Made by a program: the position numbers and the translations under genes. The notes beneath the pieces are model-generated. The model did not search any database. It saw only the letters and a list, made by a program, of their open reading frames with translations, and was not told the origin of the DNA. Positions 1,305-32,266 of a stretch of DNA of 64,000 nt are shown in pieces (the first letter of the stretch is position 1; each line of letters opens with the position of its first letter). This DNA is from an uncultured Paracoccaceae bacterium (GTDB taxonomy: Bacteria; Pseudomonadota; Alphaproteobacteria; Rhodobacterales; Rhodobacteraceae). The stretch spans positions 1 through 64,000 of the forward strand of contig CANLND010000010.1 in the NCBI GenBank assembly GCA_947492585.1, written 5' to 3'.

Positions 1305-2911
1305 TGGAAACAAAACAACACGCCGTCATTTACGCTCGCGTTTCGAGCGTCGCTCAATTGAAGAAGGGTGACGGGCTGGCGTCGCAAGAAAGCCGTTGCC
1401 GTGAATATGCGCGGTATAAGGGCTATGAGGTGCTTGATGTCTTCAATGACAACAAATCGGGTGGTGATGCTGATCGCCCTGCCATGATTGCTTTGCTGGC
1501 GTACCTCAAAGCGCAAAAAGAAACCTGCGTTGTCATCATTGACGACATCAACCGCTTTGCGCGGGATGTAGTTGGACATTGGCAATTGCGTGCGCTGCTG
1601 GCGGAAGCAGGCGGAAAGTTGGAAAGCCCGTCGATTGAATTCGGTGAGGACAGTGACAGCATTCTTGTGGAAAACCTGCTGGCGTCTGTGTCTCAGCACC
1701 AACGCCAGAAAAATGGTGAGCAAACCAAGAACCGTATGCGGGGCCGTGCGCTCAACGGTTACTGGGTGTTCCGAGCTCCGATTGGATACAAGTATGAGCG
1801 CCTTGCAGGTCATGGCAACATGCTGGTGCGGGATGAACCTCTAGCTTCCATCATCAAAGAGGCCTTGGAAGGATTTGCCTCAGGGCATTTTGAAACGCAG
1901 GCCGAAGTGAAACGGTTTCTGGAATCCAAACCTGCGTTCCCGAAAGATTTTGCTGATGGCACGATCCGTTTTGAACGGATTATCCGCCTGATGACCCGCA
2001 CACATTTTGCGGGTTACATCGAAATCCCCGAGTGGGATGTATCTCTCCGCAAAGGCCATCATGAAGGCCTGATCTCACTTGAAACCCATGAATTGATCCA
2101 GCAACGGATCAAGGACGGGGCCAGAGCGCCCGCTCGCAAGGATATCAACGCGGATTTCCCATTGCGGGGGTTCGTGTGCTGCGATGATTGCAACACACCT
2201 CTGACGGCCTGCTGGTCCACCAGCAAGTCGGGCAAGAAACATCCGTATTACCTCTGCCATGCCAAAGGATGCCCGAGCTATCGCAAATCGATCCGTCGTG
2301 ATGTGCTCGAAGGTGAGTTTGACGAATTGATGCAAAGTCTCAAACCATCCGAGGGCATGTTTGAAATGGCGTCAAAGATGTTCAAAGACGCTTGGGGACA
2401 ACGTGCGGGGCAAATGGAGGCTGACAAGCGCCTGATCCGAACCGAACGCAACAAACTGGAAAAACAAATCGAAGGCCTGCTGGATCGAGTCGTGGACGCG
2501 GATAGCCCAACCCTGATCACGGCCTACGAAAAGCGTATCGAAAAAATGGAGCGTGAGAAGCTGGTTCTGGACGAAAAGCTGCAAAACAAAGGAAAGCCAA
2601 TGCACACCTTCGACCAAATGTTCGAACACGCCCTACAATTCCTATCAAACCCTTGGAAACTCTGGAAAAGTGGCAACCTGATCGCCCAACGCACTGTCCT
2701 GAGACTGGCCTTTGCAGAGCAAATTACCTTTGCGCGAAACGAAGGACTTCGAACACCAAAAACCACCTTGCCATTCAAGGTGTTAGAGGGGTTTTCTTGC
2801 CAAAAGAAGATAATGGCGGAGAGACAGGGATTCGAACCCTGGGTGCCCGTGAAGGCACAACGGTTTTCGAGACCGTTTCTGAGGCTAAAGCCGAAAGGTT
2901 CAAACCAATAA
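1304..2911 (+). CDS. Large serine recombinase (resolvase/invertase family)
   Basis: 535 residues. The resolvase domain (about 1-150) begins AVIYARVSS with the catalytic serine and has the arginines of DDINRFARD. A recombinase domain follows (about 150-285). A zinc-ribbon-like segment comes next (FVCCDDCNTPLTAC and LCHAKGC). A long coiled coil (about 360-430) follows, as in large serine integrases of phages. The last 35 or so residues are not native: they are translated from the tRNA-Ser fragment (KIMAERQGFEPWVPVK) and then from island DNA after 2875. The gene probably belonged to a different element that used the same tRNA end. Whether the altered tail affects function is unknown. Confidence 0.85.
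   Translation: METKQHAVIYARVSSVAQLKKGDGLASQESRCREYARYKGYEVLDVFNDNKSGGDADRPAMIALLAYLKAQKETCVVIIDDINRFARDVVGHWQLRALLAEAGGKLESPSIEFGEDSDSILVENLLASVSQHQRQKNGEQTKNRMRGRALNGYWVFRAPIGYKYERLAGHGNMLVRDEPLASIIKEALEGFASGHFETQAEVKRFLESKPAFPKDFADGTIRFERIIRLMTRTHFAGYIEIPEWDVSLRKGHHEGLISLETHELIQQRIKDGARAPARKDINADFPLRGFVCCDDCNTPLTACWSTSKSGKKHPYYLCHAKGCPSYRKSIRRDVLEGEFDELMQSLKPSEGMFEMASKMFKDAWGQRAGQMEADKRLIRTERNKLEKQIEGLLDRVVDADSPTLITAYEKRIEKMEREKLVLDEKLQNKGKPMHTFDQMFEHALQFLSNPWKLWKSGNLIAQRTVLRLAFAEQITFARNEGLRTPKTTLPFKVLEGFSCQKKIMAERQGFEPWVPVKAQRFSRPFLRLKPKGSNQ
2814..2875 (+). repeat. attL: 62-bp copy of the tRNA-Ser(CGA) 3' part
   Basis: Identical over 62 bases to 32177-32238, which lies inside the intact tRNA-Ser gene. 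It covers the CCA end, T arm, variable arm and the anticodon stem-loop. Identity stops at GACCG|TTTCT here against GACCG|CCCCG at the right copy. This is the classic trace of a tyrosine integrase inserting at a tRNA 3' end. The repeat lies inside the serine recombinase reading frame. Confidence 0.95.
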
Positions 2912-3612: not shown

Positions 3613-4065
3613 TCGGTTCAGAAATTTGTTTGCGAATCCAACGATCCCACCTTCTGATTGGTCAAAAAATGAGATTAGGGCAGATGAAGGTGGCATCGGC
3701 ACATCGATTTACACTGGTTCATGGTGAAATCTGTCGCATTCTCAATCAGCGGAATTGTCGCTTCTCGTTCCACCCTTTCCACCTCCGAAGCAAAGCAAAG
3801 ATCCTCAGGTGATTTGAGCATAAGGTTCGCGTTCACCGCATATCACTGTGTCACCTGTGTCTCTGAAATCCCCGTATTTGTTGCCTGCGCGCAAATCTCG
3901 TGCGTTTCTGCTTGGAGAAAAGAACGACTATGAGCGGCAGAATGGATTTTCATGAAACAGGCAAAAACGCCACTGTAGACGCGTCGATAATTGTTCAAGC
4001 AACGATCCAGGGAGATTTTCCAGCCTGTATCCTGCCAAAATGACCAAACCATTGGTGCCGATGGG
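3613..4065. other. Stretch with no supported gene
   Basis: Several 60-90-codon frames exist on both strands, but none has a good ribosome site or a recognisable product. I see no repeats of note. It may hold a decayed gene. Confidence 0.4.
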
Positions 4066-4446
4066 TTACCTTTCCTTCCAGCGCAACACTCTCTCCATGT
4101 TTTTGTGTGCAGAAAGCTCATCGATGAGAAGTTGAGCCTGATCAGCAGCCGCTAAAATAATCTGATCCATGCTGCTTTCAACGGCTTGATAAAATTCTCC
4201 GAATTCTCGAGGATGGACCAGCAATCTTAAATATGTCACGCCGAAGTGGAGAGGGGTCACTCCCAAAACCGTCCGCACTTCAGAAAATCGATTGCAAAGA
4301 CCATTGTTGTACAAGTCATAGTACACACAATTGGCACGGCGAAGTTTATTGAATGAACGGTGCGTCCTCATTGGATCATCGGTCAAACCTACCAATTCTT
4401 CCACCACACTCTGATAGGTTCCAGTCTGATCCCAGTAGCAGCCCAT
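4066..4446 (-). CDS. Hypothetical protein, 126 residues
   Basis: The start at 4446 (MGCYWDQTGTYQSVV) is chosen because AAGGAG lies eight bases upstream. The frame continues further upstream, but that extension is basic and atypical. The protein is mixed alpha/beta with conserved-looking stretches NCVYYDLYNNGLCN and GVTPLHFGVTYLRLL. It has no signal peptide or membrane segment. It is divergent from the Fic gene across the region carrying the 16-bp repeat array, which makes it a candidate regulator or partner of Fic. I do not recognise the family. Confidence 0.6.
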   Translation of the reverse strand: MGCYWDQTGTYQSVVEELVGLTDDPMRTHRSFNKLRRANCVYYDLYNNGLCNRFSEVRTVLGVTPLHFGVTYLRLLVHPREFGEFYQAVESSMDQIILAAADQAQLLIDELSAHKNMERVLRWKER

Positions 4447-4667
4447 TTCCCATTCTCCTTGATTTCTTGAGTAAGGTGAAACTGGGTCTCTATGCCAAAA
4501 ACCGGAAATACATGGCCTCGACTTTCTGGATCTATATTTCAAAAGTTTGTTCAGCTTTGAGGTTGGGCGCTTCTCTCCACGAAGTTGGGTACGGCCTGGG
4601 ATAGGTCAGATCAAACTGCAAAAGCGATGGTGGGGTGCCGAGATGTTGGTTTGATGGGGTGTTAGGG

Positions 4668-4873
4668 GGTGAGTCTTATGTACGAAGTCCTGTGATTGGT
4701 GAGGGGTTTGTGTGCGGGGTGAAAGAAATGTACAGATCCAAGCTCTTGATCTGACGGTGATGATAATGTGCAAAAATACCCATATGGTGAAAGAAAAGTA
4801 CAAAAGGTGATTGTTTTGTACGATCACGGTGATAGTGCTGTATGCATTCTAAGGCTTGGTGAGGGAATTGTAC
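4668..4873 (+). repeat. Array of eight 16-bp direct repeats, GGTGA-N6-TGTAC
   Basis: Copies start at 4668, 4698, 4718, 4756, 4786, 4806, 4828 and 4858. Exact GGTGA-N6-TGTAC copies are at 4668, 4718, 4806 and 4858. The others differ in the right half (TGTGT, TGTGC, AGTAC, TGTAT). Start-to-start distances are 30, 20, 38, 30, 20, 22 and 30, close to whole turns of the helix. The last copy ends two bases before the Fic GTG start and supplies its GGTGAGG ribosome site. It looks like a cooperative operator or an iteron-type protein-binding array. Confidence 0.8.
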
Positions 4874-4874
4874 G

Positions 4875-6389
4875 GTGATAACCCACTTTCATGGTCGAAG
4901 ACTGCCAGAACCAGGTAACCCGGCCGGATATGCCTGGATCGTCGACACCTACAATCTTCAAGTCCCCATGCCTCCGCGTCTGATGGCGGTCGCTGACCGG
5001 CACAGTCCGGTCTCCACCAATGACTGGATCATGCTGCGATCACGTCAACAGCCAAAAGATAATCTGATCGGTCATCTTCAACTCGCTTTCCGATATGAAG
5101 GCATCAATCTCAGTGTGCTTGATCGCCTTTTTCAGGTTGTCCCCGCCGAAGAGATCACCGAGATGGTACAGCACCATGTGACGGGCATGTTTTCCCGACG
5201 CCTGTGGTTCATTTACGAATGGATGACTGGCGCGCGGCTGGACCTGCCGGATCTCGGCAAGGTGAAGTATGTCAGTATCCTCGATGAGGAACTGCATCAT
5301 ACTGGCATCATCGTAGAGAATTCTGCGCGCCACAAAATCCATGACAACCTGCCCGGTACGCCCGCATTTTGTCCGACTGTCCGGCGGACTCCGGAACTGT
5401 TTCACCTGCTTGAAGTCAGAAACCTGACGGATGAGGCCAGTGCAGCGGCTGGCAGGGTTCCAGAAGACCTAATGCGCCGGGCCGCGGCCTTCATGCTCCT
5501 GGATGACAGCAAGGCATCATTTGCCATTGAGAATGAAAAGCCTACCCCTGCCCAGGGGGCTCGATGGGGACAGGCCATCGGAGAAGCCGGGCAGCATGAG
5601 CTTTCTGTCGATGAGCTCAACCGCCTCCAGCAAATCGTGATCGGAGACGCCAGGTTTGTGAGGCTTGGCATCAGGAAGGAAGAAGGGTTCATCGGCTCCC
5701 ATGATCGCAACACGATGGAGCCGATCCCATCGCATATCAGCGCCCGATGGGAAGACCTTGATAGCCTGATGGCAGGTCTGATCGATTACGATGAGATCTC
5801 ATTGGCGCGGCATCAGCATCCTATCCTGACGGCGGCAGTGCTGGCATTTGGTTTCGTCTTCATTCACCCCTATGTCGACGGAAATGGCAGGCTTCACAGG
5901 TACCTGTTCCATCACGTGCTGGCCCGCGCCGGGTTCAACCCTCCCGGGGTTGTATTCCCCATCAGCGCCGTGATCCTGAGAAACATTGAAGAGTACAACC
6001 GGGTTCTGAGAGCCTATTCTGGTCCTCTTCTGCCATTTATTGATTGGGCAGCCGATCCGAAGGGAAATGTTAAGATCGCCGGAGAGACGGCGCATCACTA
6101 CCGGTATTTCGACGCAACGGAACAGGCCACCTTCCTGGCACGTTGTGTCCAGACCACGATTGATGAAGACCTGCCACGAGAGGTTGGTTTCCTCAGAGGA
6201 TATGACCGGTTTGCCATGGGGCTTTCCCGCATTGTCGATATGCCCAACAAGGAAATTGAATTGCTTCGAAAGTTCCTGGCACAGAATGACGGCAAGCTCT
6301 CAAAGAGAACACGGGGTGGCGAATTCGAGGCCCTGAGTGATGACGAGGTCGAACAGATCGAACAACTCTATGCTGAGAGCTGGACGTAA
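4875..6389 (+). CDS. Fic-family AMP/NMP-transferase, class II (N-terminal inhibitory helix)
   Basis: 504 residues. Fic enzymes move AMP or another nucleotide moiety from a nucleotide onto a target hydroxyl, usually silencing it. The catalytic motif is complete at about 331-342, HPYVDGNGRLHR (consensus HPFxxGNGRxxR). A class II inhibitory motif SFAIEN (S/TxxxE(G/N)) is at 215-220. Its glutamate normally blocks productive ATP binding until relieved, so the protein carries its own antitoxin-like brake. The start is GTG 4875; no in-frame ATG lies nearby, and GGTGAGG ten bases upstream fits a ribosome site. The gene converges on the EcoRII-like operon and has the 16-bp repeat array as its promoter region. 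Its target is unknown. Confidence 0.9.
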   Translation: MITHFHGRRLPEPGNPAGYAWIVDTYNLQVPMPPRLMAVADRHSPVSTNDWIMLRSRQQPKDNLIGHLQLAFRYEGINLSVLDRLFQVVPAEEITEMVQHHVTGMFSRRLWFIYEWMTGARLDLPDLGKVKYVSILDEELHHTGIIVENSARHKIHDNLPGTPAFCPTVRRTPELFHLLEVRNLTDEASAAAGRVPEDLMRRAAAFMLLDDSKASFAIENEKPTPAQGARWGQAIGEAGQHELSVDELNRLQQIVIGDARFVRLGIRKEEGFIGSHDRNTMEPIPSHISARWEDLDSLMAGLIDYDEISLARHQHPILTAAVLAFGFVFIHPYVDGNGRLHRYLFHHVLARAGFNPPGVVFPISAVILRNIEEYNRVLRAYSGPLLPFIDWAADPKGNVKIAGETAHHYRYFDATEQATFLARCVQTTIDEDLPREVGFLRGYDRFAMGLSRIVDMPNKEIELLRKFLAQNDGKLSKRTRGGEFEALSDDEVEQIEQLYAESWT

Positions 6390-6552
6390 GACATTCAAAC
6401 AACATGAATTACATTCTGCAATTGCCTGCAAACCCGGAAGGCTTCGGAGGCAGGCTAAAGATCCTCCAATTCCGCCCCCCCCAGGATTTCTTCTGCTGTT
6501 GAAAGCAATATTATGAGTGCTCTGCGGAGATACCCGGAGATACGACTGGTTT

Positions 6553-8811
6553 TCAGTGGCCCCTTCGGAAGCCTCGAAGGACGATCCGTTGCGGAGCAAA
6601 CTCTTCGACGTCTTCTTCTTCCTGAATGGTTGGGACATCCTGAATGTCGTGCTTGGGTTTTTGAGCGTCGGCGGGCCGCAATTTTGTGTACCGGTGAAGC
6701 CTCCCCATTGGGTAGCCGGTGACGATAGCAACCAGGGCAGGCAGATATGGTGTGATTTGTTCTTTTTCGACGTCCCATCCCGCAGCCAACATGTCGGCGG
6801 CCAGGCTTGTGTCACCATCGGCCTTCTCGAAACATTCAGCGACAAAAGCCCAGTGCTCCAGGAAGGCGGTACTGAGGTGCACCGTGGATATTGCAAGGTT
6901 CTGGCCAATGTACACATCACTCAGAAAGCCCAACAAATCCGTTTCGATGCGTTTGATCGTTGAGCCGTAACCGCCCAAGTCTGAAGCAAGCGCCTCGGTG
7001 GTTGGCCTGTCCAACAATGCAACGGAAGAGCGCCGGGTGAAGACATCGGCCGCATGTGCCGAAATTTTCCGAGAGTTCAAAACGGAAACAGTTGTCGGGA
7101 TTATGCTTTCAAGGAAGCACAGCGGATCATTGACATCGTATATCGGAAGAAAGGCCACTTCCGTCAAATCCGTATATTTCCACCAATCGACCAGCCCATC
7201 AGGGTAGGTGCACTTGGCCAGCATTCGAATGCTGTCATACACCCGGCGGGTGTGGGAGGTATCTGAAGCAGATAGGGCTCCACTCTTTATCGCCGTGAGG
7301 AATTCACCAACCGTCGCAAAACCCTGTTCTTGAAGAACTGCTGCCGATTTGTGTACTTGAAGTAGCTTCAAGGGGAGGTCAACGATCGGGTGATCTCCCT
7401 TCTTGAACGGGGTAGTGTCAAACAGTACCGATGACTGAAACTCCTTCCCGGCCGCAAGCTCCCCAGTAATTATCGCAGTTACAAGAGGCAGGGCGTCTAC
7501 AAACTCCCGTCTCGGCACGGACCACGCCTTTTCAAGACCGTTGACAAAATCAACGAAGGAAATGTCGTCATCAGATTTTGAAAAGTATTCAGCGGCAGCT
7601 TTCCACGGTTCCGAAAACTCCGGACGGAAGCGGTAGGGCGCATTTGCATAGTCATCATGGATCAGAGCGTTGGCCAGGCGCGTAAGGATTTTTGCCTCCT
7701 TTTGTCTCACCCTTTCCCTTGTCACCTTTTCGGTGAAAAGATCGCTGACCGCTTCGAGGCTCAGCCTTTCCTTGGGCGGGGCCATGATCCTGCTTGCGAG
7801 AATGATACCGTCCTCTTCGCTTTCACAGGTTTCAAAAGCGTCTTTCAGGACCGCAGGAAGGCGGGCAAGTATTTGGGAAAAGCTGCCCTCCTGAGGTTCT
7901 TCAGGGAACAGCCCGATGTTCATTCCCTCGCAGTAAACTTCCCAGTCGATCGACCCGTCCGGGTTTTGGGATTCTGCAATTGCAGTCAACGCCCCATCAA
8001 TCCGCTTGGTGGTTGCCTTTCCCATTCCGGGGATGTCCAGAAGTGCTGATTGCGGGGCTGAGGCAAGGTCTCCGATGGTACCCAGGCCGTTCTCGATGAG
8101 CTTCCTGGTTTTTGGCCCAAGGTGAAGGCATCCTATGGTCAGTTCCCGGGTCTGTTCACTGAGAACTGAAATGATTTCAGGCTCTTCCCGAGAGGTATCG
8201 CGGTTTGGAAGCGGGGACACCAGAGGATGCAACGCAGCAAGCCGAGACAGGACGGAATTATCTGAGCGAGCTTCCTTTGCCAACGAAAGAAGCTGGGTCC
8301 AGAATGCGGCCAGCTTCTTTGCTCCCAACCCGGAAGGGAGAGGTGATATCCCGATACGAAGTGCATCAAGCAACTCTCCAAAACTCTTCAGCCCCTCCCG
8401 TTCAAACATGGCACCAGCGTTGCCGAATGACTTTCTGTTTACAGAAAACAGTGGGTTTTCAGAGTCGATTCCGTCGAATTCAGGGCAAACAAAGAAGAGC
8501 TCGTGTAAGCCATCCTCACACCCCTCGTAGTATTCAATCCAGTCAACATTGGCTCCCTGGATGCAGGATACAAGTCTAAGCAAGTTGGCAAGGAGGTCTT
8601 CTTTTGCCTCCTGTTTCAGTGAGACGGAGGAAAGTGCGCTCTCGAGGTCTTCGATGAAAATGTAACCCTGGTTTTCGAGAAGAGTGCTGGTTCCAGGTGA
8701 CAAATGAAGGTGTCGGTGGCTCATTTTAGGTGAAATGGCCGGTTTGTTAGGTTCGTCTTTGCGTAAACCTTGGTCCACGTCCTGAAATAAGTTCAATGAA
8801 TCCTTCTCCAT
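6553..8811 (-). CDS. Large HhH-repeat protein with sigma region-4-like helix-turn-helix
   Basis: 752 residues, last gene of the defence operon. Segments resembling the RNA-polymerase alpha C-terminal helix-hairpin-helix lie at about 36-80, 127-178, 226-281 and 479-534; the clearest reads LHLGPKTRKLIENGLGTIG, then LLDIPGMG. Three are followed by a short motif, VDWIEYYEG, IDWEVYCEG and VDWWKYTDL, so the protein arose by internal duplication. A sigma region-4-like HTH (SLEAVSDLFTEKVTRERVRQ) sits at 351-370. The acidic tail ends in RIVLRGFRRGH, matching the end of the upstream gene's product. It overlaps that gene by 19 bases. It probably binds DNA, or DNA with RNA polymerase, as sensor or scaffold. 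No nuclease motif seen. Confidence 0.85.
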   Translation of the reverse strand: MEKDSLNLFQDVDQGLRKDEPNKPAISPKMSHRHLHLSPGTSTLLENQGYIFIEDLESALSSVSLKQEAKEDLLANLLRLVSCIQGANVDWIEYYEGCEDGLHELFFVCPEFDGIDSENPLFSVNRKSFGNAGAMFEREGLKSFGELLDALRIGISPLPSGLGAKKLAAFWTQLLSLAKEARSDNSVLSRLAALHPLVSPLPNRDTSREEPEIISVLSEQTRELTIGCLHLGPKTRKLIENGLGTIGDLASAPQSALLDIPGMGKATTKRIDGALTAIAESQNPDGSIDWEVYCEGMNIGLFPEEPQEGSFSQILARLPAVLKDAFETCESEEDGIILASRIMAPPKERLSLEAVSDLFTEKVTRERVRQKEAKILTRLANALIHDDYANAPYRFRPEFSEPWKAAAEYFSKSDDDISFVDFVNGLEKAWSVPRREFVDALPLVTAIITGELAAGKEFQSSVLFDTTPFKKGDHPIVDLPLKLLQVHKSAAVLQEQGFATVGEFLTAIKSGALSASDTSHTRRVYDSIRMLAKCTYPDGLVDWWKYTDLTEVAFLPIYDVNDPLCFLESIIPTTVSVLNSRKISAHAADVFTRRSSVALLDRPTTEALASDLGGYGSTIKRIETDLLGFLSDVYIGQNLAISTVHLSTAFLEHWAFVAECFEKADGDTSLAADMLAAGWDVEKEQITPYLPALVAIVTGYPMGRLHRYTKLRPADAQKPKHDIQDVPTIQEEEDVEEFAPQRIVLRGFRRGH

Positions 8812-9227
8812 CCTCTCAGTACAATCCGATTGGATGTTTCACCTGTGTCTTCGTCAGAGTGGGAATTGGCGATCAGCCGTAATTTGAAAAAATCTTGGCC
8901 TTCGTCCTTGGAAAGCTCCAATTCGTCACCGGATTTTGCCCCGGACTGTCTTAGATACCCAGTCAGGCAGGTAAGCCTGAACTCATTTCGGGTTCCGGTT
9001 TCGACGTGGAGTTTGTTGTTATAGTAAATGAACTGCAACTCGATCTCCTCACCATGTTCATCAAGGCAGTGAATGGTTTTCCGTGGGTTCTTGACGGTTG
9101 GATCCAAGTCTCCGAGGAAAGACCTAAACTCAACGTCTGCCTTGGGAATGAGCATTCCGGCTTGGTGGCTCTTCGTCTCGCCGGCATCATTGGCGCTCAG
9201 TGTTTTTCTGTATGTCTTTTTCGTCAT
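8793..9227 (-). CDS. Stand-alone EcoRII N-terminal-like (effector) DNA-binding protein
   Basis: 144 residues. In EcoRII the N-terminal domain is a pseudobarrel that reads CCWGG and controls the catalytic domain. This protein matches that fold's signature: KTLSANDAGETKSHQAGMLIP at the start, then NPRKTI, FIYYNNKLH and TRNEFRLT, the places where EcoRII has LSAND, HQ.G.YIP, IYYN and TRNE.R. The PD-(D/E)XK catalytic part of EcoRII is absent. Start ATG 9227 overlaps the SNF2 stop by four bases. The tail RIVLRGWRRIH is shared with the next protein. Likely the sequence-reading subunit of the complex; CCWGG specificity is inferred from the family. Confidence 0.85.
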   Translation of the reverse strand: MTKKTYRKTLSANDAGETKSHQAGMLIPKADVEFRSFLGDLDPTVKNPRKTIHCLDEHGEEIELQFIYYNNKLHVETGTRNEFRLTCLTGYLRQSGAKSGDELELSKDEGQDFFKLRLIANSHSDEDTGETSNRIVLRGWRRIH

Positions 9228-11047
9228 GGCAATTGTGGCCTGATGTTCAGGGCATTCCTCAAATCTTCATCATCTCTTGTAGACACCGGGGCTATCTCGT
9301 TGCCCATTTTGTTTTTCCAAGCCGACCGATCAAGCATAATCCTTTCGACAGTATCCTCGTAATAAAGGTGGTAGATCGTGACCGGTAGTGTCTGCCCCCT
9401 TCGGTGTGCCCTTGCGCTTGCCTGAGCTTCCAAAGCAGGATTCCAGACTGGTGTCATGTGGATGACGACGGTCGCTGCAGTGATATTCAAGCCTGCTCCG
9501 GCAGCCTTCGGGTTCAATACCAAGATGGCCGGGCCGTCCTCGGCAGAGAATTCATCGATTATGCCTTGTCGGTCTGCTTGCGGTGTTCCTCCGTTGATTG
9601 CGCCCCAATAGGCGCCAGAAAGGTCGGGAGCCGCTTGCTGCAGCAAATCCCCGAGACGATTGAACAGGGCGAAGACCAAGACTTTCCGGCCTGCCGTGAA
9701 AGCCTCTCGGATCAACCGGACAGTTTGCTCCATCTTGGTGTTAATCAGCGGAAGATCTACAACTTCAACGATGTCGGCATTTTCGGTGTCGGTGAAATCG
9801 ATGCCGGATACACGCAGCCAAGGGTGAGCACACACCAACTGCAGCTGCAGGGTGGCGACGAGCGCCCCGGCGACTGGATATTTCTCCAGAGTGGCTTCCC
9901 GAACCGCGTTGTAATGCTCAACGAGAGCACTCTCCATTTCCAGAGGCATCTCGATATCTATACGCTCAGGAAGATCGTCGGCTACGTCTGCGACACGGCG
10001 CTTCAGCATGACAGGTTCGACGATTTTTGCGACTTCTGCCGCCGTCTCGATCCCATCAGGGAAATTGGCCTCAAAATCAGACAATGTGCCGAGAAGTCCG
10101 GGAATGGCGAAGTCGGCCAGTGACCATAGGTCCACAAGGCTATTTTCAACAGGTGTCCCGGTCATGGGAACAGTTCGGACGCGTGGAATGGTCGCAACGC
10201 AATTCCTCCGCCCAGAGGCCGGGTTCTTAATGGCCTGAGCCTCGTCACAAATTACCCAAGACCATTCAAATGCGGAAAAAATCGAGATGTCGTTCACCAT
10301 AGTGTCATACGTGGTGATGACTACCTGAGCACTCTGCAGACCGGTGAACACACCGGTTCTGTAGGCGCCACGGTGAACCAGGACCGACAGGGAGGGTGCA
10401 AACCTTTCGATTTCACGGACCCAGTTTGCAATGAGGCTGGTTGGGCATATGATCAATGCGGGTGATTGCTCTGGTGGGGGATCCTTCACGAGCAGCGCAA
10501 TTATCTGCAGGGTTTTCCCAAGGCCCATTTCGTCTGCGAGGATCAATCCTCCGTGCGCCTGGACGGTTTCCCACATCCAGGCTACGCCTTTGGCTTGGTA
10601 GGGGTACAAATCAGCGTTTAGACCGGGCAATTTCAGCTCGTCAGGATATCGGGAAGCGGATTCCGTGCCCGATTGCCCCACAGCATCGGTGAGTTGGATG
10701 CTCAAGGAACCATCCGATGAGGCGATGTGCTGGCGGAGCTGTCCGTATCCAACACTTCCGTCATGATCCACGTCCAAGGAAGCCTTCAGCAAATCCGCAG
10801 CATCATGAGGCAACGGGCGAATGGTCTTGTCATCAAGAACCCAATCGAATTGATTGCCAAAGGCAAGTATCAGTTTTTCTTCGCCTTTTACTGTTCGGCG
10901 CCCGGCCATTTTGGGAACGAGTTTCCCATTTTCCTTGTCGATGATGACCACTGGATCAAGGACACGTCCACTCAAGCGAATTCCCTCTGGAAGAGTATCC
11001 GGAAGGTCAGCAAATTTTTCGGGAAGTGAATTCACATCAGTGGACAT
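9224..11047 (-). CDS. SNF2-family (SWI2/SNF2) DNA-dependent ATPase
   Basis: 607 residues with a full helicase-superfamily-2 set: ADEMGLGKTLQ (Walker A, about 173-183), IICPTSLIANW (Ia), CDEAQAIKNP (DEAQ box, II), MTGTPVENSL (III), KVLVFALFNRLGDLL (IV), and ASARAHRRGQ (VI). Such ATPases translocate on duplex DNA and remodel bound proteins. Within the operon it would be the motor that connects a recognition site to cutting. It overlaps the HNH gene by 11 bases upstream and the EcoRII-N gene by four downstream, so stoichiometric co-translation is likely. N-terminal 130 residues form an unassigned accessory domain. Confidence 0.93.
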   Translation of the reverse strand: MSTDVNSLPEKFADLPDTLPEGIRLSGRVLDPVVIIDKENGKLVPKMAGRRTVKGEEKLILAFGNQFDWVLDDKTIRPLPHDAADLLKASLDVDHDGSVGYGQLRQHIASSDGSLSIQLTDAVGQSGTESASRYPDELKLPGLNADLYPYQAKGVAWMWETVQAHGGLILADEMGLGKTLQIIALLVKDPPPEQSPALIICPTSLIANWVREIERFAPSLSVLVHRGAYRTGVFTGLQSAQVVITTYDTMVNDISIFSAFEWSWVICDEAQAIKNPASGRRNCVATIPRVRTVPMTGTPVENSLVDLWSLADFAIPGLLGTLSDFEANFPDGIETAAEVAKIVEPVMLKRRVADVADDLPERIDIEMPLEMESALVEHYNAVREATLEKYPVAGALVATLQLQLVCAHPWLRVSGIDFTDTENADIVEVVDLPLINTKMEQTVRLIREAFTAGRKVLVFALFNRLGDLLQQAAPDLSGAYWGAINGGTPQADRQGIIDEFSAEDGPAILVLNPKAAGAGLNITAATVVIHMTPVWNPALEAQASARAHRRGQTLPVTIYHLYYEDTVERIMLDRSAWKNKMGNEIAPVSTRDDEDLRNALNIRPQLP

Positions 11048-11855
11048 TCGTATCCATCATACTCATCAGTTCTTCGATCGAATACGGCGTGGGCCGCCGT
11101 GTGTGGACTGCTCGGTGGCAATTCGGGCAAAGAGGAACAAGATCAGTCTTTGGATCGTAGTGCTTCTCCTCATGCAATTGAGACACTGGTTGCAGGTGGT
11201 GCACCTCAAGAACCTTGCCCGCAGGTCCATATTTCAACTGCGGTTTGAGCCCGCAGCAAATGCACTTGTAGCCATGCACTCTGAGGCAAAGGAGCCGGTT
11301 TCTCGGATTTCTCTCTCGCTTCCGAACAAGCGCGAGGGAAAGGGCTCCCTCCAATTCTCCTGACGTGTCCTCAGGGACTATTTCGTCGTAACCAATCAGT
11401 TCCGCCATTGCAGCCATTAGGGGCACAATGACTTCCCGGCAAGTAGCGACGATCGCATCACCGCCATCTGCTGTGGTTTCGTGTTTGAGTGTAGCTGCTA
11501 TCGTAAACCTACCATCATCAACCGTCCAGCATTCAAGGCTTTGACCAGGAATTTCCACGTTGGCCTCGACCCTGATGCTGGTTACGAGGGATCGTGCCAG
11601 TTGGATGTCTTCCGCAGGGGCTTCGGAGATCTGTTTCAAAATCTGCCTTGAGAAATTCCCGAACCGAAGTTGCACCCGGTGAGCTTTCAGACCATGCGGT
11701 CGGAGTTCGACAATCGGTCCCTGTCGTTTCTCCAAATCATGGAACCAAATATCCAAACCTGACCGAATTCCAGAGGCTACAATGCTCAAAGCGACAGACG
11801 CACCCGTACCTTCGCTCAACTCAGATGCAATCAGGTCTGCGTGATCTTTCAGCAT
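11037..11855 (-). CDS. HNH endonuclease
   Basis: 272 residues. The C-terminal 90 residues form an HNH nuclease: zinc-binding CICC and CPNC pairs, EVHHLQPVSQ with the catalytic histidine, and CHRAVH to close the motif. The N-terminal 170 residues are unassigned and may bind DNA or partners. This is the only obvious cutting enzyme in the operon besides Vsr, so it is the best candidate for the restriction activity. It lies nine bases after the GHKL gene and overlaps the SNF2 gene by 11. Confidence 0.9.
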   Translation of the reverse strand: MLKDHADLIASELSEGTGASVALSIVASGIRSGLDIWFHDLEKRQGPIVELRPHGLKAHRVQLRFGNFSRQILKQISEAPAEDIQLARSLVTSIRVEANVEIPGQSLECWTVDDGRFTIAATLKHETTADGGDAIVATCREVIVPLMAAMAELIGYDEIVPEDTSGELEGALSLALVRKRERNPRNRLLCLRVHGYKCICCGLKPQLKYGPAGKVLEVHHLQPVSQLHEEKHYDPKTDLVPLCPNCHRAVHTRRPTPYSIEELMSMMDTNVH

Positions 11856-11864
11856 TCGAAAGCT

Positions 11865-13502
11865 CTACTCGTCTTCAAGGTCGTCGCTGGTCGGTGTGGT
11901 CACGTCGCGCAACAGCTTTCTAAGGTTTGAGGAAATCTCTTCGCGGATATCTGAAAAAATCGGATCCAGTTCCTCGTTGGTGTTGTTCTGCTCGGCTGCA
12001 GTGAAGGCCCAGAGCAGAAGATCCATTCCCTGTACGGAATAGCCGCTGCTTGCCGCGCGAAGGTAGATTTTTTGGTAATAGTCGTGATGCTTGTTTAACA
12101 ATACTGCACCGACATGTCCCTCAACTCCCGCACTCCTATAGCTGGGTTCCCACAGGTCTCCTGACGTGATCGTGTCAACGGCTTCAATATAGAGACTACC
12201 AGGTTCGACGTTGTTTTCGATCTTCTGGCGAATTTTGATCTTCGGCCCGCGATTGTTCGAGATCACTGCACTTTGCGTGTCGGGATCCGCACCCTCAACT
12301 GTTGCTTGCCGCGTGTTTTTGGTGCCCTCCACAGTTCGGTTCGAAGAAGTATGATCAACCTTGGCCTTCGCTGCGGCTTTCTGGGCTTTCTTTCGGTATC
12401 GCAGGTTTGCTTCCCTGCGCGCTGGTCCGAGAAGCTTTTCGAGATATTCGGACAGGGCCGGATCAAAGAGAACACGGGATTTCTTCACGTCGATATGAAA
12501 TGCCTCATCCAGTTCGTGCCCAAAATCAAATTCAATTCGTAGCAATGACATATGTGGGTCGAGACCGCCGAAAACACTGAGCCATCCACCGCTACTGATC
12601 AACCGACCTTCCCTGTAGATGTAGAATCCCTGGCCCCTGTTGGTAATGCGAGCTTGGCTCTTTTCGTCGTCGTCCAGGTCGTCGCTGTGAGGCAGGATCC
12701 ATGCCGCGACCGAAGCATTGTGTGTACTCCCGTCTTCGACCTGCACCTCCATTGCCTGTTGTTTCTCAGCAAGGACCTGTTCCGAGCGTTCTCGGAAAAA
12801 TGGATCCCATGGCCCGACTTTGACGCCATCAACAGAAATCGTGATATTCCGCTCTCGGGTATCGGCTTGATCCAGAAAACGGTGATAGATCTCACTTACG
12901 TGTTTCTGCAATCCAGCAGAGAGACGGCCAATCGCAGCCTTTTCCTTCGCACCACCGGGTTCGTCATAGTTCTTTGAGAGGATCCTGTCGCATTTCGACC
13001 ATACGACGAGCGTTCCACTTCCTTCCCCACACAGTTCCTCGAAGGCTTCTTCCTCATCAACCGTCACCGGTTCCCTGCTCATTTCCCAGAGCCCCGATGC
13101 TTCGACGTGATCAAGGTCCCAGGAAAGCTTGCTCAGGGCTTCATCGGGTGAGTTTCTTGAGATCAGCGTGAATTGGCGGCACACGGAACTCGAGGCGGTT
13201 TTCAATCCGAGGCCAAACTTGCCAAGGCTTTCAGGGTTTTCACGCTCGGGAGCCCCGTAGCGCATCGCCTTGAACACACCGTCGGCATTCATACCGGAAC
13301 CATCATCGCCGAAATAGACAAGTTTTCGTCCGTCTTGCATCAAATCGATGCGAACATTGATCTCCTGAGCGCCAGCAGCCACCGAGTTGTCTATGATGTC
13401 GGCAGAAGCTGTCCGAAAGTCATAGCCTGTATCCCGTAGACCGTTGATCAGCCTTGGGGCGTCTGGTTCGTTAATCAGTTCGTTAATCAGTTCGTTGCTC
13501 AT
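11865..13502 (-). CDS. GHKL (MutL/MORC/Hsp90-like) ATPase
   Basis: 545 residues. The Bergerat ATP-binding fold is clear: N box ASADIIDNSVAAGAQ (about 32-46), G1 box DDGSGM (66-71), G2 box GKFGLGLK (94-101). The usual catalytic glutamate of the N box (ExxxN) is replaced by aspartate D35, with N39 kept. GHKL ATPases of MutL/MORC type act as ATP-driven DNA clamps, and related proteins have been described in restriction-modification loci as prokaryotic relatives of MORC. A tandem 12-bp repeat (13467-13490) duplicates the residues NELI at the start of the protein. Two bases separate it from vsr. Confidence 0.88.
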   Translation of the reverse strand: MSNELINELINEPDAPRLINGLRDTGYDFRTASADIIDNSVAAGAQEINVRIDLMQDGRKLVYFGDDGSGMNADGVFKAMRYGAPERENPESLGKFGLGLKTASSSVCRQFTLISRNSPDEALSKLSWDLDHVEASGLWEMSREPVTVDEEEAFEELCGEGSGTLVVWSKCDRILSKNYDEPGGAKEKAAIGRLSAGLQKHVSEIYHRFLDQADTRERNITISVDGVKVGPWDPFFRERSEQVLAEKQQAMEVQVEDGSTHNASVAAWILPHSDDLDDDEKSQARITNRGQGFYIYREGRLISSGGWLSVFGGLDPHMSLLRIEFDFGHELDEAFHIDVKKSRVLFDPALSEYLEKLLGPARREANLRYRKKAQKAAAKAKVDHTSSNRTVEGTKNTRQATVEGADPDTQSAVISNNRGPKIKIRQKIENNVEPGSLYIEAVDTITSGDLWEPSYRSAGVEGHVGAVLLNKHHDYYQKIYLRAASSGYSVQGMDLLLWAFTAAEQNNTNEELDPIFSDIREEISSNLRKLLRDVTTPTSDDLEDE

Positions 13503-13503
13503 T

Positions 13504-14001
13504 TCAAACGCTCGTTTTCGCTTTCTGGTTTGTTATTGAATGACTTTTTCGCCGTGTGTCAGAAGATATTTCTGCAAATTTTTCATGGGACTGCAACCAA
13601 TCGGTGATACAGGTGACAAGTTTCTCAACCTGAATTTCCCGAGTTGCACATTCCCAAACAATTAGAACGCGCCAGCCGCCATCGATAAGACACTGAACCG
13701 CTGCCTGATCGCGCTTTCTATTGGAGAGAAGTTTCTCTTGCCAGAATTCACGCCGTGTCTTTGGCAGTCTGAAATATCGGCAGCCTTCATGCGCATGCCA
13801 AAAACACCCATGGATAAAAATTGCTGACCGGTATTTGCTCAACACAAGATCCGGTTTTCCCGGAAGTTCCTTTCTGTGAAGTCGAAAACGAAATCCACAG
13901 GCGTGTAGTGCGCGCCTGACGACAAGTTCAGGCTTTGTGTCCTTGGACCCGATCCGCGACATCATCTGTGATCGGCTCATCGGGTGCCGTGTCTTAGGCA
14001 C
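13504..14001 (-). CDS. vsr: Very short patch repair (Vsr) endonuclease
   Basis: 165 residues, normal for the family. Signatures are [35 protein letters not shown] (catalytic Asp), [15 protein letters not shown] (zinc-binding and active-site His), RREFW, and VLIVWEC. Vsr nicks beside T:G mismatches made when 5-methylcytosine deaminates at Dcm sites, protecting the genome from C-to-T mutation. It overlaps the methyltransferase gene by eight bases, an arrangement like dcm-vsr of E. coli. Its presence supports 5-methylcytosine as the mark; it might also have been adopted for restriction here. Confidence 0.95.
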
Positions 14002-15070
14002 GATTCACCTTTCTTGACCTGATAGCCACCGTGTTGGTAAGCCACGGTTCCATGGCATTTGCGATCGCAATGGCGACCGGTGCGGCCACTGCGTTCCCAA
14101 ATTGGCGGTAAGCTTGGGTATCCGAAACAGGAATGATCCAGGGGCGATTGTTACCTGGTCGGTCAAACCCCATTAGACGTGAGCATTCCCGTGGGGTCAG
14201 GCGCCTCGGAATGTCTCCATCCTGCTCAATAAGGATTTCTGAACCGTCCTTGTAATACCTTGCGGACAGCGTTCTGGCGACATCGCCAGGCCCTCGCAAG
14301 CCGAAACCAAATCCATTGCCCGCAGCTTTGTGTTTTGCAGCGTACCTCTGAAGATAATCCCAGAGTTTGGGGGTCAGGGTATACTTTTCCGACACTTCAG
14401 CACGCGAGCCCACTGTAAACGGAAATTCAGCAATTTCAGATCCATCTTCAGGATGAAGGATATCTTTAAGAATGGGTTTACGCCCTTCAGGAATCTCCAC
14501 ATCTTCCATGGTAAAGTTGGTCGGAAAATCTCTACGGAAACCAGATATGAAAATCCGTTGCCGATGCTGGGGGACCCAACTTTGGGCATCTATGACGCGA
14601 TAGTCGACATCGTAATCGAGTTCGTCCAATGCATGCAAAATTACACGCATCGTATTCCCCTTGTCATGGCTCAGAAGGTTCTTCACGTTCTCCAGCAAGA
14701 ATGCCTTCGGTTTATGGTGCCTTAGGATCCGTACGACATCGAAGAATAGCGTGCCTTGAGTCTCGTCGGCAAAACCATGAGCTCTTCCCAAGGCATTTTT
14801 CTTGGATACCCCAGCGATTGAAAAGGGCTGGCATGGGAAACCCGCGAGCAACAAGTCGTGTGCCGGGACGTCCTTTTCATTGATCGCTGTGATGTCACCT
14901 TCGATTTTGTGGTCATCGTCTGGGAAATTCGCCCTATAGGTTTCTTGAGAGTATTTGTTCCACTCGGAGGTGAATACACATACTCCACCGATTGCTTCAA
15001 AACCGATCCGGAGGCCGCCGATTCCGGCAAATAGATCAATAAAACGAAATGGTTCAGTGGCTTTATTCAT
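13994..15070 (-). CDS. dcm: DNA (cytosine-5-)-methyltransferase, Dcm/EcoRII type
   Basis: 358 residues from ATG 15070; a longer frame from TTG 15166 adds residues unlike the family. All key motifs are present: [11 protein letters not shown] (AdoMet binding), GFPCQPFS with catalytic Cys80, ENVKNL, QHRQRIF, and the end blocks [14 protein letters not shown] and YRQFGNAVA. The segment [16 protein letters not shown] followed by GNGFGFG resembles E. coli Dcm and M.EcoRII, pointing to CCWGG as the target. As the first gene of the operon it would protect host sites. The start has only a weak ribosome site. Confidence 0.93.
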
Positions 15071-15575
15071 TCTGCTCGCCGTGCCGTACGTTAGAAGGTA
15101 TGCCCCACGGACCTCACACTCAAGATAAGGCGCAGTACGTGGTGTTTGGCTATATGTATGCGACAAGCGAGGCTCTCACACAACTGCTATGAGCCACCAC
15201 GTTGCAGGGAAACGACAATTTGGATACGGTGTCTGCTGGATCTCCCAAATTTATCGGTTGCTTCGTCTGAAGACTTCGGCGTTCTCGTTCGGTTCTCTTC
15301 AGTATCGTTGCTGCGGTTAGCACGCTGCGCAGCAAACAGTAGTATTGGTTTGACGGTTTGCTTCAGAACTCCCGAAGGGCGGCTATGCACGGGCAGGCTG
15401 AGGCACGTGCTGACACTTCGTGATGAGGGTCTTGGGTCACTTCAAATTTTGGGAAACAAACCCGGTCTGGAAGTCGAAAAAATCTTGGTTTCGCATAGCT
15501 CGATGAGGGTCACGACCCGCGCGCGCGGTCTTTCATCCACGGAAAAGCCCTGAAAACCGTGTCAAGTAGTGGGCC
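15071..15575. other. Upstream region of the defence operon; no gene seen
   Basis: This stretch lies between dcm and the iterons. Frames on both strands are short and of unlikely composition. It must hold the operon promoter (minus strand), but I cannot fix the -35 and -10 boxes by eye. Confidence 0.45.
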
Positions 15576-15680
15576 CTGCAAAATCTGCACCGGTTTCTGT
15601 AAAATCTGCACACTAAGCTGAAATTTCTGCATCTTTGGCTGCAAAACCTGCATATTCGCCTGCAAAAGTTACATTCCACC
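15576..15680 (+). repeat. Iteron array: five 21-bp direct repeats
   Basis: Units begin exactly every 21 bases, at 15576, 15597, 15618, 15639 and 15660. The shared core is CTGCAAAATCTGCA; units 1, 2 and 4 match it best and the fifth diverges in its second half. The last seven bases of each unit vary. A 21-bp period (two helical turns) is typical of plasmid iterons bound by an initiator. No CRISPR-like unique spacers are present. An origin or partition-like site is inferred. Confidence 0.85.
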
Positions 15681-16101
15681 CTTTTCAAGGTGTTGAAATC
15701 ATGAGGCAAACTGCCCTTCCGAAAGAAGAGAAACTCCAGAAAGAATAGAAAGGCCTCTGGTGAGGCCGATTTCTGTTTTGAGTCGATGACCCCACATATC
15801 CCACCTCTCTGGGTACGTCTGACGCGTGCTGATTGACGGGCCGATGACGACCGCAGAGCCGCCTGCCGGGGAGTTTTCCTATTCAGATTGAAGGGTCAGG
15901 TTTCTCTCAGGCATGTTGTCCGAACATGGCAGCGCAATACCGTGACTTCCGATCTGGAAAACCTGGTCGTGTCGGCGAAACAGGTTCGCTGAGATCATCC
16001 CAAACACCCTCAGTCTAACGGCAAGAAACAAATTTGTCCTCACATTTTCAGAGTTTCGGAAATCGACCGCATCTCCTTCCCGATGAAAGAAGGAGAAACC
16101 C
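15681..16101. other. Region between the iterons and the HTH gene
   Basis: No gene is supported. A short hairpin GGCCTC-tggt-GAGGCC lies at 15752-15767. The last bases (GAAGGAG before ATG 16102) are the ribosome site of the next gene. If the iterons are an origin, this could be the unwinding region, but no strongly AT-rich block stands out. Confidence 0.4.
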
Positions 16102-16479
16102 ATGCTTAACACTGCCGAAGTTGCCCATCATTTTGACCTGACTGGCGAAACCGTTCGAAGAAAGATCCGAGCTGGAGAGCTCATGGCGACACGCGATCGC
16201 CGGGACTACCGTGTGACTTGGCAAAGCGTCTGGGCCTGTGAGCAAGGCCCAATGCCCAAGCGTAATCATTGTGAGCGTTACAAGGAACCTCTGCTGTCCA
16301 AGAAGCATCTTGCCGGTTCCACAGGGTATGACATTCGCACGGTCGAACGCTGGATCCAAGACGGGCTGCCGACACGGAATGCCTTCGGCAGCGTGCGGAT
16401 CAACCCTTCCGATGCAAAGGAATGGCTGAAACATGTGCGGGGCCTCGAGATTGAAAATCTCGAACGCGTTGAGGTGTGA
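16102..16479 (+). CDS. Tandem excisionase/AlpA-like helix-turn-helix protein
   Basis: 125 residues with a strong AAGGAG ribosome site. Two similar DNA-binding modules are visible. Residues about 3-45 read TAEVAHHFDLTGETVRRKIRAGEL; residues about 64-115 read KKHLAGSTGYDIRTVERWI, then DGLP and SVRINPSDAKEWL. Both match the plan helix-turn-helix, a GLP-type turn, then a wing ending in a W-rich helix, as in AlpA and Xis proteins. It lies next to the iterons and could regulate them. A second protein of the same plan is encoded at 24792. Confidence 0.7.
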   Translation: MLNTAEVAHHFDLTGETVRRKIRAGELMATRDRRDYRVTWQSVWACEQGPMPKRNHCERYKEPLLSKKHLAGSTGYDIRTVERWIQDGLPTRNAFGSVRINPSDAKEWLKHVRGLEIENLERVEV

Positions 16480-16773
16480 CTTGGACATGTCTTGCACAGA
16501 TCCGTTGGCAGTTCTTCCGACAGAACAGGATACCTCCCGACATTTGCACAAAGGTCCGCAAACAGGAATCGGCGTTGTGTTTGAGGGCGGTTTTGCAAAT
16601 CGAGGGATTTTCCCGACATATCGTGCGATTTTCCTCCTCATCCCCGTCATCCTCCAACAGTGTTGATTGTCGCTGAGAACTGACCCGGTAGCCCCATAAA
16701 TTGTCACTGAGAATTGACCCATGTGAACACACTTCCCCGACGGTTTTGGTTGGGGGGATTGGGAGTGATCGAC

Positions 16774-30401: not shown

Positions 30402-30414
30402 GATTGTGTCTTCA

Positions 30415-30607: not shown

Positions 30608-30994
30608 ATGAGCATTCAAACCAATCAAACAAAAATTTCGGTTTCTGAGGAAAGGGCAAATGTCCTCGAAACGATGAAACCGAGGCTCAGGACGCCGGTC
30701 GTCGCAAAGCTGAGTGGTAAGTCCCGAAGGGCGATCACGCAGCACGCGGCAAACGACGACATTCCAGGCGCCGTCAAACATGGCGGTGTCTGGACGTTCG
30801 ACCACGACCTGGCCCTGATATGGATAAATGAGGGCAGCAAATGTCTAACAAAGAAGAAAAACCAAAAAACATCTTCAAGCCAAATAACAGCAAGTATTGG
30901 TGGCTCCGGGTCAAGATCCACGGCGTCACCCACCGAGAGTCGCTTCGCACAACTTCTCAAAGAGTCGCGGAGAAAAAAGCCAAAGGCCGCATAA
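30608..30994 (+). CDS. Excisionase-like helix-turn-helix protein overlapping the integrase
   Basis: Start ATG 30608 after GGAGGCAC. The first 78 residues form a compact HTH (VVAKLSGKSRRAITQHAAND, then GVWTFDHDLALIWI), as in AlpA and Xis proteins that direct excision. The frame continues for 154 bases inside the integrase gene, giving a basic serine-rich tail with the look of an out-of-frame reading. The real protein may simply carry this tail, or its own stop was lost. Position next to int fits an excisionase. Confidence 0.6.
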   Translation: MSIQTNQTKISVSEERANVLETMKPRLRTPVVAKLSGKSRRAITQHAANDDIPGAVKHGGVWTFDHDLALIWINEGSKCLTKKKNQKTSSSQITASIGGSGSRSTASPTESRFAQLLKESRRKKPKAA

Positions 30995-31938
30995 AGGAAC
31001 TGAGAGGACTGGATGAGGCTGGCGAATTGGATTGGAGCTTTGGTGCTGGCCTTGCCAAATTCTATGACGTTTTGGGTTTGGAAAGCAGCTCGTGGGGTGC
31101 CGAGACGCGTAAACGCTATAGGTGCAGCCTGCGACAGATCCTGCGTGTTATCGACGGGTACTGCGACGACATTGGTTGTAACATCGAAGATTTGATGGCA
31201 GCCGAAATTACGACAGCCGTTGTATCAGAATTCGTGTCACGTAGGCGCGAAGAAGGGGTGACGGTGTCCACCATCAATCGAGATCTGACAGCGTTCGCAA
31301 ATCTCATGAGGTCGATCAAAAACGACGGATGGATCGAAACAAATCCGGTTCAAAACTATGAAAAGCAGGGAATGAAAGAGATTCTGCCCGTTATTATTCC
31401 ACCGTCAGAAGCCAGCATTCAGAAGCTGTCGGCGCGGGCACCTGGCACTTTGTTCTACTTTCCCAAATTCCTGGATGCTACTGGTGGCCGTGTGACTGAG
31501 ATGGCGATGTTGCTCTGGTCGGATATCTCGGGCTTCGAAAACCCCGTTGAAGGGAACGTTCAGGCGATTTTGAGAAATACCAAGGGCAAGAAGGTTCGAG
31601 CAATCGAATTGCGACAAGAGGTTATCGACATTTTGTTGAAGATCCCGCGATCAAATGCCTCGCCCTACGTGTTCTGGAATTCCACAGAACACGGCTACTA
31701 CAAGGATCCGTCGAACCTCTTCTGGGAATACGGACAGGAAACAGGGTTCAATGCCCGACTTCACGATCTGAGGCACAAATTTGCCATCGAACGTCTCAAG
31801 GAAGGCTGGTCTATCTATCGCGTCCAGAAATACATCGGCCATGGATCGGTGCTGACAACTGAACGGTACTATCTCAGGTATCTTACGGAAGAAGAGAAGA
31901 CCCGAGTTTCCGCAGATGGTGACAACGGATTTCGATAA
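30841..31938 (+). CDS. int: Tyrosine site-specific integrase of the island
   Basis: 365 residues. The N-terminal arm-binding region (SKYWWLRVKIHGVTHRESLR), core-binding region (about 60-165) and catalytic domain are complete: DATGGRVTEMAML (first R), LHDLRHKFAIERL (HxxR), IGHGSVLTTERYY (second H region and the nucleophile Tyr). It lies about 240 bases from the tRNA with its 3' end toward it, the usual arrangement. It most likely recombined the 62-bp tRNA sequence to insert the island. A terminator follows. Confidence 0.95.
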   Translation: MSNKEEKPKNIFKPNNSKYWWLRVKIHGVTHRESLRTTSQRVAEKKAKGRIKELRGLDEAGELDWSFGAGLAKFYDVLGLESSSWGAETRKRYRCSLRQILRVIDGYCDDIGCNIEDLMAAEITTAVVSEFVSRRREEGVTVSTINRDLTAFANLMRSIKNDGWIETNPVQNYEKQGMKEILPVIIPPSEASIQKLSARAPGTLFYFPKFLDATGGRVTEMAMLLWSDISGFENPVEGNVQAILRNTKGKKVRAIELRQEVIDILLKIPRSNASPYVFWNSTEHGYYKDPSNLFWEYGQETGFNARLHDLRHKFAIERLKEGWSIYRVQKYIGHGSVLTTERYYLRYLTEEEKTRVSADGDNGFR

Positions 31939-32095: not shown

Positions 32096-32176
32096 CTTTG
32101 GCTGAAAATATCGCCAACGACAGAAACCAAACTACGCCTGAAATGCGTGAATTACCTTTTTATTTCAGGGATATAG

Positions 32177-32266
32177 TGGCGGAGAGACAGGGATTCGAAC
32201 CCTGGGTGCCCGTGAAGGCACAACGGTTTTCGAGACCGCCCCGTTCGACCACTCCGGCACCTCTCC
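32177..32266 (-). tRNA. tRNA-Ser(CGA)
   Basis: 90 bases with the CCA end encoded, GGTTCGAATCC in the T arm, a long variable arm typical of serine tRNAs, and an anticodon loop CTCGAAA (anticodon CGA). The acceptor stem GGAGAGG pairs with CTCTCC at the 3' side. The 3' 62 bases are the island attachment site; since they are identical in the repeat, the gene stays functional after insertion. Confidence 0.97.

Follow-up and report, generated by a model that had tools for sequence, protein, structure and literature searches.

The 64,000 nt stretch analysed here (the window; uncultured Paracoccaceae bacterium, GCA_947492585.1, contig CANLND010000010.1, positions 1-64,000) carries a compact operon of seven minus-strand genes, lettered A to G, that encode a predicted restriction-modification system, with two of the proteins ending in the same short tail. 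An earlier reading of this DNA, made from its letters alone (the sequence-only reading), had described seven overlapping or touching genes, and all seven open reading frames (ORFs) lie where it placed them. From their coordinates, A and B overlap by 8 bases, D and E by 11, E and F by 4 and F and G by 19, with gaps of 1 base between B and C and 9 bases between C and D. The identities proposed then agree with Pfam for A to F (DNA_methylase, Vsr, HATPase_c_3, HNH, SNF2 and EcoRII-N), the matches of G being weaker.

Gene A (13994..15070) encodes a Dcm-type C5-cytosine methyltransferase (DNA_methylase, 4.7e-85) of 358 amino acids from an ATG at 15070; the mechanical ORF extends to a TTG at 15166. 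Aligned over 340 columns, the protein shares 58.5% identity with E. coli MG1655 Dcm, and these columns take in the segment from motif VIII to motif X, where the target region lies. Because of this identity, methylation of CCWGG by A, as previously supposed, is likely. A second C5-cytosine methylase is present in the source genome (L143, G000:C7:143220-144128). Gene B (13504..14001) encodes a Vsr mismatch endonuclease (Pfam Vsr, 2.2e-30; TIGR00632, 143 bits, cut-off 97.85), with 38.6% identity to its E. coli counterpart across 153 columns. Gene C (11865..13502) encodes an ATPase with GHKL and S5 domains (HATPase_c_3, 6.6e-24). At residue 292 it reads GFYIYREGRLI, matching GhXhhpXXRhl, the MORC motif of the S5 domain given by Iyer et al. 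(PMC2292703); the strict motif occurs in 82 of 86 C proteins of at least 450 amino acids, that of the window included, and the other four have His for one Tyr. A PDB sequence search with C gave MORC2 entries and nothing else up to E 0.01. Judged by its sequence, C is a true prokaryotic MORC, a kinship that had already been suspected. Gene D (11037..11855) encodes an HNH nuclease (Pfam HNH, 1.3e-07) with its HNH motif from residue 198. This domain is McrA-like, with PDB 6ghc (3.5e-4, residues 189-267) the sole solved structure up to E 0.1, and D matches a PADLOC type IV model (1.8e-5). For the N-terminal ~190 amino acids no identity was found, the likeness to McrA being confined to the HNH domain. 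Gene E (9224..11047) encodes an SNF2 ATPase (SNF2-rel_dom, 3.3e-57; Helicase_C, 1e-14) with the motifs DEMGLGKT and DEAQ.

Gene F (8793..9227) encodes a stand-alone EcoRII-N/B3 protein (EcoRII-N, 3.3e-11), a predicted DNA reader. Its AlphaFold model has a mean predicted local distance difference test score (pLDDT) of 86.4, and the closest PDB folds are EcoRII (1na6, 4.6e-6) and EcoRII-N with DNA (3hqf, 5.5e-6), at template-modelling scores (TMq) of 0.63-0.64. In this model F folds as EcoRII-N, and the claim of a lone EcoRII-N protein stands. Among 35 aligned F proteins (of the 96 described below), H21 and the R80-N81-E82-x-R84 motif (R80, N81, E82 and R84) are invariant.

Gene G (6553..8811) encodes a 752 amino acid protein that profiles and an AlphaFold model resolve into four helix-hairpin-helix (HhH) and two helix-turn-helix (HTH) modules, the first HTH being sigma4-like. 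Pfam returned HHH_5 at 1.8e-05 (25.5 bits, cut-off 27), RNA_pol_A_CTD at 0.042 and Sigma70_r4 at 0.14, and NCBIfam the RpoD C-terminus at 5e-4. The model opens with HhH modules at residues 30-110 and 118-190. Two units come next (221-452 and 474-702), each made of an HhH, an HTH and a small domain of helices, and the chain closes with a linker, disordered in the model (706-741), and a short tail (742-752). The two units reflect an internal duplication: residues 215-455 align with 470-705 at 99.9% hhalign probability (6.7e-32), while the two HTH modules are alike at only 85.1%. The model, built from 12 sequences, has a mean pLDDT of 79.8 and a predicted template-modelling score (pTM) of 0.43, with pLDDT below 50 at 706-742 and 749-752. 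One local fold match, 9dvt_A (TMt 0.86, RMSD 1.2 over 60 columns, E 2.0), is labelled as the C-terminal domain of the RNA polymerase alpha subunit (alpha-CTD).

To place the operon among its relatives, we recruited loci with F alone as the query. The resulting 96 loci comprise the best 80 of 289 genome matches, 9 viral contigs, 6 of 136 plasmid records and the window; they are ranked by likeness to the window F and retain near-identical pairs (such as L002 and L024), and the shares given below are not population frequencies. Two architectures were found: MORC-HNH-SNF2-F (type 1, n=58, as in the window) and SNF2-F-MORC-HNH (type 2, n=37), with one locus unclear (L086). The four core genes are adjacent among the scored genes and in their expected order in 51 of 58 type-1 and 36 of 37 type-2 loci. 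Contig ends truncate five of the seven exceptions in type 1 and the lone exception in type 2 (six of eight overall); of the other two, L030 has a partial SNF2 gene and L092 a rearranged end. Since a search with F alone recovered the same neighbours, the gene set is not a chance assembly. All of A to F are present in 46 of 58 type-1 and 28 of 37 type-2 loci. In L016 there is no Vsr match between the methylase and MORC genes (2497-2589), and the remaining six genes are present.

The sequence-only reading had presented the seven genes as one system. The MORC-HNH-SNF2-F core is indeed nearly invariant, but all seven genes in order occur in only 11 of the 96 loci, window included, two of which (L017 and L021) lack the end of G. 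G itself is present in 16 of 58 type-1 loci, or 10 of the 42 flanked by 6 kb or more upstream and 2.5 kb or more downstream, and in none of the 37 type-2 loci. Being missing from most loci, it is dispensable: the sigma-like protein belongs to the window operon but is an optional accessory of the system. In a quickly built SNF2 tree (91 rows, long-branch warnings, L086 counted with type 2), type 2 forms one side of a branch, and the label type 1 with G needs 7 changes, 4 of them forced by well-supported branches.

A survey of 198 genomes from the bacterium's own family gave F of this kind in 5 genomes, and 3 further matches in frames of 403-424 amino acids that probably represent complete EcoRII-like enzymes. 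Three of the 198 genomes carry G and one more a remnant of it, and F is present in all four; a fifth match, weak and 55 residues long (8.2e-4), was left out of the count. In a class sample of 385 genomes, G was found solely in the bacterium's own genome, and 3 weak matches cover 77-112 residues around the HTH. One plasmid record carries G, together with F. A two-sequence query confirmed no G in viral contigs, and none was found in phage records. Nine IMG/VR contigs (L092-L100) bear all or part of the system, and G is on none of them.

The sequence-only reading overlooked a C-terminal tail common to F and G. F ends in RIVLRGWRRIH (residues 134-144; 8796..8828, minus strand) and G in RIVLRGFRRGH (residues 742-752; 6556..6588, minus strand), the latter behind the linker 706-741, and the consensus is about RIxLRG[WF]RRxH. 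Across the 35 aligned F proteins the tail is about as conserved as the B3 domain, with a mean column entropy of 1.19 bits against 1.28 for residues 1-90 and 2.0 for 91-117, while the linker just before it is variable (3.03 bits, 118-133). Trp140 is invariant in this alignment, and the corresponding residue is Phe in all 12 aligned G proteins. The strict form W[RHSA][RK]xH ends 54 of 58 type-1 F proteins, and close variants end the remaining 4. In type 2, which has no G, 34 of 37 F proteins end in a GW[RK]VV-like tail that keeps the Trp. For G, L[RK]GF[RH]xxH ends 13 of 14 stop-ended proteins, near-identical pairs such as L002 and L024 counted; the single exception, L017, stops 60 bases short of its contig end, and two further G genes are truncated at contig ends. 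Neither the strict nor a looser form of the G tail ends any of 8,287 other stop-ended ORFs of at least 60 amino acids in these loci.

The window tails share 9 of 11 residues, yet only 4 of those 9 codons agree in their third base. Being more alike in protein than in silent bases, the tails point to selection and not to fresh copying, and recent gene conversion was rejected as their source. The flexible linker before the tail suggests that it is a putative docking peptide. A looser scan of 23,088 fragments gave 17 matches other than F and G, and inspection by eye left one more genuine case, an ankyrin protein encoded after F in Burkholderia sp. BCC0506 (L051). It ends in RIKLRSAWRRYIE, which does not fit the strict form. 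An 18-base tail pattern run over 35 genomes matched at a rate like that of its reversed control and was hence uninformative. In L012 (genome G620, 10437-10733), G has shrunk to an ORF of 98 amino acids that retains the tail, the middle of G being gone.

Our next question was how the operon relates to EcoRII, since the system had been labelled a dissected EcoRII. The missing catalytic domain was borne out: a search of the 3.59 Mb assembly (95.6% complete) gave 0 EcoRII-C matches, although no control genome matched in that search either, and the same search, run over 36 genomes of relatives, recovered EcoRII-C in 6 of 6 positive controls known to carry a local copy; among the other 30, all type-1, it gave 4 (near F in L026, L034 and L060, on another contig in L015). 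The label itself did not hold. By profile search an EcoRII-like nuclease lies beside F in 18 of 37 type-2 and 6 of 58 type-1 loci; a single-sequence search had given 17 and 3, and the profile counts are used. Pfam found EcoRII-C alone in the three neighbouring nucleases tested, but comparison of profiles from 19 aligned nucleases revealed a diverged EcoRII-N-like domain in front (hhalign 99.2%), which in L004 still has the reading motif's R, E and R. As these nucleases hold an EcoRII-N-like domain of their own, F is a second, separate EcoRII-N, and an EcoRII gene split in two was rejected; the window lineage is merely without the nuclease gene. Like EcoRII, a type IIE enzyme, the window operon pairs the EcoRII-N reader fold with a Dcm-like methyltransferase; it differs in that its genome shows no EcoRII-C and its reader is a separate protein beside ATPases.

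The sequence-only reading had not recognised the whole set among named systems. Operons combining a MORC ATPase, an SNF2 ATPase, an HNH or EcoRII-like nuclease, a VP1/RAV (B3) protein, a cytosine methylase and Vsr were, however, predicted by Iyer et al. (2008; PMC2292703), so that six of the seven parts had been put together before and the core is not new. The window operon has the features of that group: the MORC motif in C, SNF2 with an HNH nuclease, and the frequent companions B3, C5-methylase and Vsr. A restriction-modification role was a prediction there, as it is here. The words sigma and HhH are absent from the main text of that paper, and the part of it drawn on here describes no shared tail. 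In the openly licensed literature we found no description of either G or the tail.

Three other groups of systems share parts with the operon. MZA systems also pair a GHKL ATPase with a sigma-like protein, and C matches the MzaB model, but at 187 bits against a cut-off of 850 it is a relative outside the family. G as MzaA or as a sigma factor was rejected, since it reaches 17.9 bits against a cut-off of 800, through the HTH alone (residues 321-379). MzaE and the other Mza proteins had no NCBIfam match among the seven window proteins, and a search for the MzaA family in 120 genomes returned housekeeping sigma factors in all 120, with none above the cut-off. In L051 (9453-14416) the core is followed by the tail-bearing ankyrin protein, an ankyrin-sigma70 protein and an AIPR protein. 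The ankyrin-sigma70 protein scores 527 bits against the MzaA model (residues 12-752; cut-off 800) and, unlike G, carries sigma regions 1.2-4 and ankyrins; the AIPR protein matches MzaE at 983 bits (cut-off 1050). This mix of genes indicates that the operon type and MZA share parts. CglI and NgoAVII combine a C5-methylase, a B3-domain nuclease and an SF2 ATPase, and their cutting needs ATP hydrolysis (PMC4267653). The first and last of these and the B3 reader have counterparts in the window, but the CglI/NgoAVII reader is fused to a PLD nuclease, a domain with no Pfam match among the seven window proteins, and MORC, HNH, Vsr and G fall outside its three genes as given in the portion of that paper used here. 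The full protein sets of DISARM, Druantia, Zorya and Dpd are absent from the operon: among the PADLOC matches listed, the SNF2 gene accounts for ZorD, DpdE and DrmD and the methylase for DrmMII and DruM, and no other protein of these systems is among them.

From these parts we lean, by a little, towards a mobile, ATP-dependent restriction-modification system that would attack unmethylated CCWGG and whose readers would dock through the tail. A would methylate CCWGG in the host, and B would mend the T:G mismatches left by deaminated 5-methylcytosine. F would read unmethylated CCWGG-like sites on incoming DNA and pass them to a MORC-SNF2-HNH machine, in which SNF2 would move on or remodel DNA, MORC would clamp or loop it and HNH would cut. 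That F senses unmethylated CCWGG and commits this complex we infer by analogy with CglI/NgoAVII and with EcoRII, in which the N-domain senses additional CCWGG sites allosterically (PMC4081073); Iyer et al. proposed that MORC forms DNA loops joining the sites of recognition and of cutting (PMC2292703). The tail, on its flexible linker, would plug the reader part of F or G into the machine, and G would be an optional second reader of HhH (alpha-CTD-like) and sigma4-like modules, possibly aimed at promoter-like DNA. A broader version, which we put forward tentatively and rate somewhat below an even chance, is that one MORC-SNF2-HNH core takes exchangeable, unrelated readers (B3, HhH/sigma4 array, ankyrin) attached by one conserved tail.

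Several results weigh against this picture of docked, CCWGG-directed readers. G is absent from 42 of 58 type-1 loci and from every type-2 locus. Its sigma4 (0.14) and alpha-CTD (0.042) likeness is weak in sequence, the 377 amino acid G of L046 is without the sigma4 part, and a PDB fold search with the whole G model gave 0 of 176 matches at E of 0.001 or below. F has no lysine at the positions aligned to EcoRII Lys92 and Lys97. In the AlphaFold model residues 139-143 of F form a strand (mean pLDDT 85 for 141-144 and 60 for 131-140), and the tail may thus pack on F itself instead of docking elsewhere. Lastly, F and G tails from the same operon are closer than cross pairs (p 0.003, 14 pairs including L017, kinship uncorrected).

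The strand and the closeness of own-operon tails are also what would be seen if the tail were the last beta-strand of the F barrel and the G copy slotted into F by strand exchange, giving an F-G reader pair. The strand lies behind a disordered linker, and searches made with G itself found it in company with F: the four family genomes with G or its remnant, like the single plasmid record with G, all have F. Yet the L051 ankyrin protein bears a version of the tail as well, tailed F is common without G, the Trp and a related tail persist in type-2 F, where no G exists, and the Trp is replaced by Phe in every aligned G. We regard strand exchange as rather unlikely. Somewhat less probable still is a regulatory role, in which G mimics the promoter-touching parts of RNA polymerase (alpha-CTD and sigma4) and controls the operon or senses or blocks phage transcription, much as the sigma-like MzaA may do in MZA. 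The module composition of G fits such a role, as does the Burkholderia relative, in which a full sigma70 protein matching the MzaA model below its cut-off and an MzaE-like AIPR protein lie beside the same core. However, no match to sigma region 2 or 3 was found in the four G proteins scanned (window, L046, L056 and L059), and the likeness of the G tail to the F tail ties G to the core complex. A type IV-like attack, in which the McrA-like HNH nuclease cuts 5-methylcytosine DNA recognised by F or D, is very improbable: the matches to 6ghc and to the PADLOC type IV model speak for it, but they are restricted to the HNH domain, and since the operon itself makes the methylation, such cutting would hit its own host. 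Least probable of all, and barely worth entertaining, is a DNA-repair or housekeeping cassette in which a MutL-like ATPase works with Vsr; both genes are present and occasional recruitment of such ATPases to repair is mentioned by Iyer et al. (PMC2292703), but the operon lies in an island with att-like repeats and an integrase, has the patchy spread described above (5 of 198 family genomes have such an F) and in relatives shares its neighbourhood with EcoRII-like nucleases.

If the reading of exchangeable, tail-docked readers is correct, new readers, including one with RNA-polymerase-like promoter-touching modules, could be added by appending the tail. The shared tail offers a sharp, testable hypothesis for reader attachment and exchange. 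Eukaryotic chromatin MORCs have been proposed to derive from such bacterial operons (Iyer et al., PMC2292703). No experiment on this operon type turned up in the openly licensed literature, and a small operon that pairs EcoRII-N, with its expected site CCWGG, with MORC, SNF2 and HNH offers a direct route to bacterial MORC function.

The operon lies inside a 29.4 kb island (window 2810-32238) bounded by 66 bp direct repeats that are 98.5% identical. One att-like repeat (32173..32238) covers the 3' part of a tRNA-Ser gene (32177-32266, minus strand), its partner (2810..2875) marks the far end, and a tyrosine integrase is encoded at 30841..31938 on the plus strand (Phage_integrase, 1.7e-15). Two parts of the window recur in a genome from another genus of the family (G598), 2809-16663 with 98.3% and 29803-32294 with 94.8% DNA identity; in the backbone past the tRNA the identity is 72-84%. 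In two other loci, L013 (91%) and L012 (90%, middle of G missing), DNA likeness is confined to ~6,533-15,192, which is the operon, except for a tRNA-derived repeat in L012. This restriction suggests that the seven genes may also move as a unit. The island further carries a gene for a Fic-domain protein (4875-6389), convergent with the operon and matching the PADLOC candidate PDC-S24 (2.3e-184), and an IS21-type transposase pair (16894-19079; Mu-transpos_C_2 and IstB_IS21).

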